The notes under the pieces were generated by a model, which saw nothing but the letters and a program-made list of their open reading frames with translations, did no database searches and was not told where the DNA came from. Of a stretch of DNA of 61,072 nt, positions 21,203-46,193 are shown one piece after another. Made by a program: the position numbers and the translations under genes. Position 1 is the first letter of the stretch. Every line of letters begins with the position of its first letter. This DNA is from Deltaproteobacteria bacterium (GTDB lineage Bacteria > Desulfobacterota > Binatia > DP-6): NCBI GenBank assembly GCA_005879795.1, contig VBKJ01000136.1:1-61072 (forward strand), in the 5' to 3' direction.

Positions 21203-21209
21203 ACGTGAG

Positions 21210-21299
21210 CGGAGAGGGAGGGATTCGAACCCTCGGTAGGGGTACTACCCCTACACACGCTTAGCAGGCGTGCACCTTCGACCACTCGGTCACCTCTCC
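21210..21299 (-). tRNA. tRNA-Ser(GCU)
   Basis: On the minus strand the acceptor stem GGAGAGG pairs with CCTCTCC, followed by discriminator G (typical of Ser). The anticodon arm is CACGC-CTGCTAA-GCGTG with anticodon GCT and canonical U33. It has a long variable arm (GTAGGGGT pairing with ACCCCTAC) and T arm GAGGG-TTCGAAT-CCCTC. CCA is not encoded. It decodes AGC/AGU. It lies tail-to-tail with the ELWxxDGT gene. Confidence 0.97.
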
Positions 21300-41382: not shown

Positions 41383-41523
41383 CGCGCGTCCTCCTTCATC
41401 GCGTTTTCTGGGCATAGCTCTCACTGGCCAAAGTTGACGTAACCGCCCAGAGCACAGTTCGGGCAATACCCAGCCGGTGCGTGTTCGGGTATCCCCTCAA
41501 ACCGTGATGCCAGAGTCGCCGCC

Positions 41524-41808
41524 GTGCTCCGCGCCAAACCCGCCCCGCTCCACGCGACCGACGAAACGTTCCTCTTCACGACGCCGACCGGGCGCCCGAT
41601 CGACGAGGAACGGTTCGTCGAGAAGCACTGGCACCGCGCCATCCGGGCGACCGGCATCCGCCCGCGGAAGTTCTACGCCACCCGGCACACGTTCATCTCG
41701 GCCGCGCTCAGCAAGGGGGCGAGCCTCAAGTGGGTCGCCCGGTACTGCGGCACCTCGGTCGAGATGATCGACGAGCACTACGGGAAGTGGCTCGGTGACG
41801 ACGGCTGA
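41524..41808 (+). pseudogene. C-terminal remnant of a tyrosine recombinase (phage-type integrase)
   Basis: Open frame of 95 codons encoding DETFLFTTPTGRPIDEERF, KHWHRAIRATGIRPRKFYAT, RHTFISAALSKGASLKWVAR, YCGTSVEMIDEHYGKWL. The RHTF box (Arg of the catalytic set) and the Tyr in EHYGKW fit the C-terminal catalytic half of site-specific integrases. A full protein has about 350-400 residues, so the core-binding domain and first catalytic Arg are missing. Upstream DNA does not continue the family in any frame. The end lies 95 bases from a tRNA-Ser-like repeat. Confidence 0.8.
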
Positions 41809-41903: not shown

Positions 41904-41970
41904 GAGGGGGGGAAATTCGAACTCCCGAGGGCTTTCGACCCTGGCGGCTTTCAAGACCGCTGCCTTCAAC
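41904..41970 (-). repeat. Partial tRNA-Ser(UGA) copy, probable attachment-site duplicate
   Basis: 67 bases matching 42793-42859 in the same orientation with three mismatches. It covers tRNA nucleotides about 20 to 86 (D loop to 3' end) but lacks the 5' acceptor strand, so cannot make a tRNA. Anticodon loop is CTTGAAA with canonical U33. A duplicated tRNA 3' portion beside an integrase remnant is the classic footprint of integration into a tRNA gene. Confidence 0.8.
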
Positions 41971-42044
41971 GGCGCTCCTCCTCGCTACTCCGGACGCGTC
42001 GAGCGCCCCGCAGGCCGCCGCCACCGCCGAGCGTTCACCACGAG

Positions 42045-42734
42045 CTATGACGCTGATGCGGCGAAGCTCCCGAGGAAGCGGCCAACCTCTTCCTCGATCG
42101 GGAGCGGCTCCGCTCCCGGGGGAAACTCGTCGAAGAACCCGATCTGAACGAACCGTGAGGTGGCAGTCAGCGCCGGACACCAGAAGGTGGTGCCGCGACG
42201 GACCTTGCGGACGGTCGGCCAGCTGGGACGGTCCATCGTGTGAAACACGACGCGGACGCATGGGCGCCCGAGGGAACGGTCCACCGAGACGTCGGCCTCT
42301 GCGCGCTCGTACTGTAGTCGGTCACGAATCTCCGCTCGTACCCCCTGCTCGACTCGCGCATGCAGGGCCACCATGTCCGCACCGACGATCGACGGTCGCC
42401 GGATCAGGATGAACGCGCCGGCGCGTCGGTAGTCCGTGCTCGCCATTCTCGCGAACTTGAGCAGGTTCGCGTGCTTGCGCGCCACGTGGTCGCCATCGGC
42501 CGGGTCGAGCCATGATCCGCTCTCGTTGCCCCGTGCGAAGGCGAAGCGCCAAGGCCCCTGGGGAGGCAGCACCGACACGCCTTGCAGCTCGTAGCGCTCG
42601 TTCTCGTTCGGAACGGGATGGAATGGCCTGAGCGACTGTTCCAATGCATGAAGCTCCGGTCCGCAACCGACCAAGGCACCCACGGCGAGCCCCAGAAGGC
42701 CGCCCCCGATAGCCGCCCTTCCCCATCGCTCCAT
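42045..42734 (-). CDS. Putative lipoprotein of unknown function
   Basis: 229 residues from ATG 42734. Signal MERWGRAAIGGGLLGLAVGA ends in lipobox LVGC (Cys about 24). The mature part is soluble: YELQGVSVLPPQGPWRFAFA, WLDPADGDHVARKHANLLKF, VVFHTMDRPSWP and FVQIGFFDEFPPG. It resembles lipoproteins that have an N-terminal beta strand region and a trailing helix, but no named family. It is the only gene between the two tRNA-Ser copies, so it is either cargo of a small element or was enclosed by the duplication. Ribosome site weak. Confidence 0.65.
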   Translation of the reverse strand: MERWGRAAIGGGLLGLAVGALVGCGPELHALEQSLRPFHPVPNENERYELQGVSVLPPQGPWRFAFARGNESGSWLDPADGDHVARKHANLLKFARMASTDYRRAGAFILIRRPSIVGADMVALHARVEQGVRAEIRDRLQYERAEADVSVDRSLGRPCVRVVFHTMDRPSWPTVRKVRRGTTFWCPALTATSRFVQIGFFDEFPPGAEPLPIEEEVGRFLGSFAASAS

Positions 42735-42790
42735 CGGTGAGTCAGATTGGGATCGGCATGGGCTCCGGGTCATCTCAAACCAGCATAAAG

Positions 42791-42878
42791 CGGAGGGGGG
42801 GAGATTCGAACTCCCGAGGGCTTTCGACCCTGGCGGTTTTCAGGACCGCTGCCTTCAACCGGGCTCGGCCACCCCTCC
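42791..42878 (-). tRNA. tRNA-Ser(UGA), with atypical C33
   Basis: On the minus strand acceptor GGAGGGG pairs with CCCCTCC, with discriminator G. D arm GCCGAGCCCGGTTGAAGGC. Anticodon arm GCGGT-CCTGAAA-ACCGC gives anticodon TGA (decodes UCA/UCG and others by wobble). Long variable arm and T arm GGGAG-TTCGAAT-CTCCC. Position 33 is C, not the near-universal U. All else is normal for a class II tRNA-Ser. CCA not encoded. Confidence 0.9.
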
Positions 42879-43420: not shown

Positions 43421-44443
43421 CTACGACGGCGACACGCCCTTCGCACTCAGCTCCTCGTCGATCAGCTCTTTGAACTTCTCGAAGGGCTGCGCGCCGGAGA
43501 GCATGCGTCCGTTGATGAAGAAGGCGGGCGTGCCGTTCACGCCGACCTTCCCGCCGTCGGCGATGTCCTTGTCGATCGCCGCCTTGAACGGCTTGTCCTT
43601 CAGGCACTGCTCGAACTTGGCCTCGTCGAGGCCGACGTCCTTCGCGTATTCCTTCAGCTTGTCCTCGCCGAGCGCTGTCTGGTTGGCGAACAGCTTGGCG
43701 TGGTACGGCCAGAACTTGCCCTGGGCATGGGCGCAGTTCGCCGCCTCGGAGGCGGGGCGCGCCTGCGGGTGGAACGGCAGCGGATAGTCGCGGTAGACGA
43801 TCCGCACCTTCTCGCCGTAAGCCTTCAACACCTCGTCGACGGTGCCCTCCGCCCGGCCACAGAACGGGCACTGGTAGTCGGAGAACTCGATGATCGTGAC
43901 CGGCGCCTTCGCGCCCCCACCCCGCTCCGGGCGGCCCGCCGTCGCCACGTCGATCACGGGCGGCCGGAGTGCGACCGTCGTCTTGTGCTTCTTCTTGAGG
44001 TCCGCGACGAAGGCCGCCTCTCCCTGCTCCGCGCGCTGCTGCTTCAGGTACTCGACGATGCGGGGCCTGACCTGTTCGAGCGTCTGCGAGCCGAGTTGCG
44101 CCTTGTTGTCGTCGTAGACCTTCTGGATCTCGGCGTCGGTCGGCTCGGTCACCTTGGCGGTCACCTCCTGCTTCCTGAGCTCCTCGACCGACGTGCCGCG
44201 CGTCTTCGCCTCCTGCTTGAAGAGCTCGTCGGCGATCATCTCGTCGAGCCCCTCGCGCAGGGTCTCGTAGCGCTGGTTCTCGAGCTCGATCAGCTTTGCG
44301 CGCACGTGGTCCTCGAGCTCGGCACGCGTGATGGTGCGCTCGCCGACCGTGGCGACCTTGCCGGCCTGAGCGGCCAAGCTCGCGGGCACGACGGCGAGAG
44401 ACGCGGCGAGAGCCACGACCGTCAGGGCGCTCGCTATCTTCAT
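43421..44443 (-). CDS. Exported SurA-like chaperone region fused to DsbA-type thioredoxin domain
   Basis: 340 residues. GGAGGATTCCCGG before ATG; MKIASALTVVALAASLAVVP is the signal peptide. Residues about 25-160 resemble the helical SurA/PpiC N-terminal region (VGERTITRAELEDHVRAKLI, MIADELFKQEA). Residues about 165-335 are a DsbA/DsbG-like thioredoxin fold (VTIIEFSDYQCPFCGRAEGT, then GVNGTPAFFINGR with cis-Pro). The CPFC active site suggests disulphide formation or thiol reduction on exported proteins. A domain fusion of chaperone helices with a thiol oxidoreductase is known in deltaproteobacteria-like genomes. No parvulin catalytic domain. Confidence 0.88.
   Translation of the reverse strand: MKIASALTVVALAASLAVVPASLAAQAGKVATVGERTITRAELEDHVRAKLIELENQRYETLREGLDEMIADELFKQEAKTRGTSVEELRKQEVTAKVTEPTDAEIQKVYDDNKAQLGSQTLEQVRPRIVEYLKQQRAEQGEAAFVADLKKKHKTTVALRPPVIDVATAGRPERGGGAKAPVTIIEFSDYQCPFCGRAEGTVDEVLKAYGEKVRIVYRDYPLPFHPQARPASEAANCAHAQGKFWPYHAKLFANQTALGEDKLKEYAKDVGLDEAKFEQCLKDKPFKAAIDKDIADGGKVGVNGTPAFFINGRMLSGAQPFEKFKELIDEELSAKGVSPS

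Positions 44444-44909: not shown

Positions 44910-44917
<8 letters not shown>
44555..44917 (+). CDS. Small OB-fold-like lipoprotein
   Basis: 120 residues. [19 protein letters not shown] is a lipoprotein signal with Cys19. The rest reads [40 protein letters not shown] and [20 protein letters not shown], a five-strand OB-fold pattern. Likely anchored in the outer or inner membrane facing the periplasm. Divergent from the SurA/DsbA gene and overlapping serS tail-to-tail by 8 bases. No specific ligand known. Confidence 0.75.

Positions 44918-46193
<1,276 letters not shown>

Follow-up and report, generated by a model that had tools for sequence, protein, structure and literature searches.

U33 is taught as fixed in every elongator tRNA because the anticodon is presented by a sharp turn that this base forms. 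The serine tRNA of the Candida CTG clade has G33 and is linked to a changed genetic code. C33 itself is on record in the Sulfolobales, where it is fixed throughout the clade in tRNA-Cys(GCA), a tRNA that could not be isolated (PMC7668247), and in the metazoan initiator tRNA-Met, where it replaces U33; the latter source holds that exceptions at conserved positions in annotated eukaryotic genes are most likely pseudogenes (PMC9023262). A cost of C33 is seen in yeast, in which the U33C change in tRNA-Gln(CUG) gave a pseudohyphal phenotype (PMC3664417), and U33C abolished the tRNA-induced hydrolysis of acetyl-CoA by human Elongator (PMC11096365). The accessible text of a paper on natural non-canonical tRNAs mentions U33 for tRNA-Pyl only (PMC7609411), that of two others holds no mention of U33 or C33 (PMC13092985, PMC9897764), and no report of C33 in a bacterial tRNA-Ser(UGA) was found in the literature searched, which lay outside subscription journals and preprints.

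Here, we analysed a stretch of 61,072 nucleotides (the window) from a draft genome of a deltaproteobacterium in which the only detected tRNA for UCA has C where nearly all elongator tRNAs have U. Judging from its sequence and surroundings, this tRNA-Ser(UGA) with C33 is probably a gene native to the high-GC bacterium and working in it, with C arisen by mutation from the usually invariant U33.

The tRNA-Ser(UGA) gene and the tRNA set of its genome

The gene has the cloverleaf, the long variable arm and the anticodon of a tRNA-Ser(UGA), and departs from that type in having no U at position 33 (Table 1). When the region was searched alone, the Rfam tRNA model matched 42791-42878 with 49.6 bits against a gathering threshold of 29, while the gene was absent from the list given by a default Rfam scan of the whole window; its start in a preliminary description of this DNA and in ARAGORN differs by one base. 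The anticodon stem, GCGGU/ACCGC, has five pairs, all standard in the register that gives the loop CCUGAAA, and this register is secure because the stem is fully paired. The preliminary description had stated that the full-length gene carries C33 and that a truncated copy nearby keeps U33, in a loop CUUGAAA, and both statements held. A better stem alignment that restores U33, which would have undone the first of them, was looked for and does not exist, the five standard pairs ruling out a shifted register. The marks of a pseudogene, broken stems or a score below the cut-off, were not found. A selenocysteine tRNA was also considered and rejected, since it would need the anticodon UCA where the full gene has UGA, and since only the truncated copy matches tRNA-Sec, with 29.1 bits against 47. 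The search for a promoter of the tRNA gene gave no match to the sigma-70 consensus, a result that carries little weight here.

Table 1. Coordinates of the features of the window referred to in the text.
Feature	Coordinates	Strand	Basis and details
tRNA-Ser(GCU), the window's other serine tRNA	21209..21299	minus	ARAGORN; U33
Tyrosine recombinase, C-terminal remnant	41500..41808	plus	Phage_integrase PF00589, E 4.6e-4, 20.4 bits, below the Pfam cut-off of 27.1
Truncated tRNA-Ser(UGA) copy	41904..41977	minus	U33 at 41954, C32 at 41955, G39, decayed 3' end
242-codon open frame between the two tRNA copies	42045..42773	minus	Lipoprotein-like start by eye; no Pfam match
tRNA-Ser(UGA), full length	42790..42878	minus	ARAGORN and Rfam; long variable arm, C33
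Anticodon loop CCUGAAA	42838..42844	minus	Anticodon UGA 42842-42840; C32 42844; C33 42843
DsbA/thioredoxin-like gene, conserved tRNA neighbour	43421..44443	minus	SurA-like N-terminus
serS, seryl-tRNA synthetase, conserved neighbour	44910..46193	minus	

The genome is a 4.1 Mb draft in 280 contigs (99.6% complete, 3.9% contaminated). A search with the tRNA model gave 36 matches, which ARAGORN reads as 36 distinct genes; U33 is present in 35 of them, the exception being Ser(UGA). There are four serine tRNAs, with the anticodons UGA, CGA, GGA and GCU. It had been suggested in the preliminary description that decoding of UCA and UCG could depend on another copy or on a tolerant tRNA. The first possibility finds no support, since no second Ser(UGA) was detected in the assembly by DNA similarity, by the tRNA model or by a loose U33 pattern, the single match to which is the D-loop of Ser(CGA), and for UCG a separate Ser(CGA) with U33 is at hand, so that reading of this codon does not rest on the C33 tRNA. 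Several needed tRNAs (e.g. Ala-UGC, Ile-GAU, Gly-GCC and Arg-ACG) are absent from the ARAGORN list; the assembly therefore has gaps, which may also hide a further Ser(UGA). In 69 open frames, picked by length and third-position GC and thus a rough gene call, UCA makes up 64 of 1598 serine codons (about 4%), or 1.9 per 1000 codons, and UCG, which Ser(CGA) reads, 18 per 1000. We infer that the anticodon loop with C33 would still turn well enough to decode, perhaps more slowly, and that selection on it may have been relaxed through the low use of UCA together with the separate tRNA-Ser(CGA) for UCG.

Conservation of the locus and the origin of C33

The order serS, dsbA-like gene, tRNA-Ser(UGA) is kept in all four family relatives fetched, which places the window's gene in the orthologous position, and each of these relatives has exactly one Ser(UGA), with U33, at this locus; in two further family genomes, both about 80% complete, no Ser(UGA) was found. 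Among 29 relatives' loci, all 28 called Ser(UGA) genes have U33, the remaining locus (L056) being a Ser(GGA). In a sample of 395 genomes of the phylum, a C33-specific pattern matched the window's genome alone; a pattern allowing C or U at position 33 matched 297, part of these matches being due to chance. Given U33 in the relatives and the restriction of the C33 pattern to a single genome of the phylum sample, C33 is derived here and lies outside the ordinary variation of the group.

The truncated copy aligns with positions 13-86 of the full gene at 93% identity, forming a 74-base near-repeat at a spacing of 0.8-0.9 kb. The differences are at position 33, at position 39 (the truncated copy has U31-G39), at one base of the T-stem and at the 3' end. 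In the alignment, two letters, one in the D-arm and one in the variable arm, are common to both copies and different in the relatives G002 and G005; a further relative, G003, has the variable-arm letter of the window's copies but not the D-arm letter. The recombinase remnant, upstream of which no open frame was found, stops roughly 96 bases short of the truncated copy. G003 has a related remnant (55% over residues 46-101, and 85% over 60 bases of DNA), situated some 120 bases behind its full tRNA. A second displaced island end further left was sought and rejected, since the tRNA 3' part did not recur at a tolerance of two to three mismatches.

These features raise the possibility that an integrating element delivered C33: a crossover within the tRNA would have exchanged the gene's 3' part for the element's own, C33-bearing copy, and what was displaced from the host gene, with its U33, would be the truncated copy. 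The window resembles the islands of the Islander type in having a full tRNA gene, a displaced fragment on the same replicon and an integrase remnant, the first two being the island signature, and the anticodon loop holds the crossover site in 2083 of 3919 Islander islands (PMC4383910). Moreover, Ser(UGA) fragments in related genomes start at C32 (L036; nine in G012), and an integrase remnant comes straight after the full tRNA in G003 and after the truncated copy in the window. Unlike in such islands, however, the two copies are only 0.8-0.9 kb apart and the remnant lies outside the pair instead of between its members. In addition, the match of the truncated copy goes beyond the loop, reaching the D-arm on its upstream side, and the letters common to both copies, unlike those of the two closest relatives, make both resemble copies of one host gene. 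Nor was a general link between C33 and integrases seen in other bacteria: of the 91 C33 loci described below, 80 were scanned (the last 11 were outside the scan), and an integrase motif was found near only two, L133 and L141, which are alike; this motif is an ad hoc regular expression that misses remnants, finding none in the window, and it matched at none of the 29 relatives' loci. We therefore consider delivery of C33 by an element to be unlikely, albeit with a real chance of being right.

The preliminary description had proposed that integration or gene conversion may have left the intact gene with the substitution. The part concerning integration stands insofar as a partial copy beside an integrase remnant is a typical trace of insertion into a tRNA gene. 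C33 may have come with it; the copies share two lineage-specific letters without counterpart in the two closest relatives, so that a point mutation arising afterwards in the full gene accounts for the facts equally well. The simplest account would start from an old integrase scar behind the tRNA, which at least G003 has too; later, in the window's lineage, some 0.9 kb would have been inserted or duplicated between this scar and the tRNA, leaving the dead 3' copy. The truncated copy may thus be a dead fragment from an earlier insertion at the tRNA that has, for this reason, kept the older U33.

Fragments of U33 tRNA-Ser(UGA) were also seen near the full gene at L036 (genome G018), where the fragment begins at C32, and at L057 (G025). 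On one contig of the window's class (G012:C87; L159, L160), nine tRNA-Ser(UGA) 3' halves, each beginning exactly at the anticodon loop, are spaced 1-6 kb apart (e.g. L159:997, 5916, 8381, 9341, 11844, 14575, 15510, 16526; L160:2404). In seven of them, a common left arm has CACCCCCGCA, CGCCCCCGCA or TGCCCCCGCA at its end and follows short repeats of the type GGACAGCAC. The copies are separated by single genes or pairs: ParE, HicB-like, Phd/YefM, DUF5615, GST, N-formylglutamate amidohydrolase and an IS3-type transposase. The whole looks like an integron-like array with tRNA-derived sites.

C33 in other bacteria

We scanned the contigs of 84,980 species (genome_contigs) for GGTCCTGAAAACC followed, 16-44 bases on, by GTTCGAATC. 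This C33 pattern occurred at 91 places, a number that is not a frequency because stem and T-loop are in part prescribed by the pattern. ARAGORN called a tRNA-Ser(UGA) with C33 at 86 of them (79 distinct sequences); 11 of these calls, with their unusual 5' ends, may represent odd tRNAs. The places, mostly in metagenome assemblies, belong to Aeriscardovia (13 places in 12 assemblies), Dehalococcoidia, Omnitrophota, Patescibacteria, Phascolarctobacterium, Butyrivibrio and many others. With the either-base pattern, a U33 match was absent from 40 of 50 C33 genomes; in the other ten, it was tRNA-like in eight, ambiguous in one (G460) and chance-like in one (G461). A looser U33 pattern, applied to 32 of the 40 and judged by eye, revealed no convincing U33 gene in any; it matched in 12, nowhere in a sequence resembling an anticodon arm, and one match was the D-loop of the C33 tRNA itself. 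Of 61 genomes sampled from the family of Aeriscardovia, 50 matched, 12 with C33 (all Aeriscardovia) and 38 with U33, and of 61 sampled from a Dehalococcoidia order, 37 matched, four of them with C33. The use of UCA is 8.1 per 1000 codons in Aeriscardovia and 9.1 in a Dehalococcoidales genome, both above that of the window's genome. The tolerant tRNA considered in the preliminary description fits these comparative data, in which a C33 gene is repeatedly the only Ser(UGA) detected.

Some of these loci had further features. At L105 (Omnitrophota) and at L140 (Spirochaetales), the genome carries C33 in Ser(CGA) as well as in Ser(UGA), and at L132 (a Bacteroidales MAG) the stretch bearing the C33 Ser(UGA) also carries tRNA-Cys(GCA) and tRNA-Arg(ACG) with C33. 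The C33 Ser(UGA)-like tRNAs at L079, L084, L089, L102 and L106, several of them from Patescibacteria, have GTCGCATAG and are reminiscent of the 'allo-tRNA' type. In Butyrivibrio and Lachnospiraceae (L090, L099, L100, L121, L154), a tRNA-like gene with a UGA anticodon and C33 has a short D-arm and is unlike serine tRNAs; the genome of L099 (G445) has two U33 matches besides it.

Philodulcilactobacillus myokoensis WR16-4 has been cultured and PacBio-sequenced (PMC10284405). In 62 of its open frames, UCA is the commonest serine codon, with 526 of 1598, the equality of this total with that of the window's genome being a coincidence. The only Ser(UGA) found has C33, and the next match (77% identical) falls at a gene read as Ser(GCU) by ARAGORN. 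The tRNA model gave 63 matches, and only fetched stretches were read, possibly leaving a few tRNAs unread; of the 42 distinct tRNAs so obtained, C33 is present in five genes (L094, L187, L198), one each for Ser(UGA), Trp(CCA) and a CAU tRNA and two for Tyr(GUA). The CAU gene among them we take to be the elongator tRNA-Met, the other two CAU genes resembling initiator and Ile tRNAs. In a sample of 121 genomes of the family, tRNA-Tyr also has C33 in at least G609, in both of its copies, and G668, in one of its two. Low UCA use may explain how C33 is tolerated in the window's genome, an explanation that fails for P. myokoensis. Growth of the latter is difficult to understand unless its C33 tRNAs decode or C33 is altered post-transcriptionally.

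C33 recurs in many unrelated bacteria, and the textbook rule on U33 is therefore broken more often than assumed. A broader reading, to which we give somewhat less than even credence, is that U33 may not be obligatory in bacterial elongator tRNAs and that C33 may have been fixed many times, chiefly visibly in tRNA-Ser(UGA); in P. myokoensis, it affects four isoacceptors, each the only reader found. If this were true, either the bacterial ribosome would accept a C-turn in certain loops or some unknown post-transcriptional step would convert or modify C33.

Remaining explanations and comparison with known systems

We considered the possibility that C33 is not in the organism at all and that the metagenome assembly shows instead an error, of consensus or of assembly, or the allele of a minority strain. 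The draft state of the genome, the near-repeat 0.8 kb away and the uniqueness of C33 among the 395 genomes of the phylum sample are all compatible with this. However, the nearby copy has T, so that mixing of the repeats would yield T and not C, and unrelated genomes, among them that of a culture sequenced with long reads, have the same substitution in their only copy. Thus, an artefact appears improbable. We think it about as improbable that the full gene is turning into a pseudogene while the genome has an ordinary Ser(UGA), with U33, in a part missing from the assembly: the gaps are real, as the missing tRNAs attest, but all stems are intact, the Rfam score is well over the cut-off, and the four family relatives with a match have one Ser(UGA) apiece, at this same locus. 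That C33 was selected as an altered crossover site, blocking entry or exit of elements at the tRNA, is very improbable, for although the loop appears to be a crossover site for elements in the window's class, C33 has no general link to neighbouring integrases or fragments, and U33 relatives carry fragments too.

The preferred reading, of a native and working tRNA-Ser(UGA) with C33, is a modest claim for a single draft genome, and the wider C33 pattern makes it worth testing. Natural genomes in which a C33 tRNA is the only copy, including that of a cultured bacterium with four isoacceptors of this sort, offer material for asking whether U33 is needed for the turn, by the modifying enzymes and by the ribosome, or whether the base is altered post-transcriptionally. 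Among the known systems, the serine tRNA of the Candida CTG clade is like that of the window in having a residue other than U at position 33, but this residue is G and not C, and no sign of a changed genetic code was seen in the window's bacterium. The metazoan initiator tRNA-Met shares C33 but acts as an initiator in the P site, whereas the tRNA of the window is an elongator. The tRNA-Cys(GCA) of the Sulfolobales, although archaeal, of another isoacceptor and mentioned with a G27-U43 pair, is, like the tRNA of the window, an elongator with C33.
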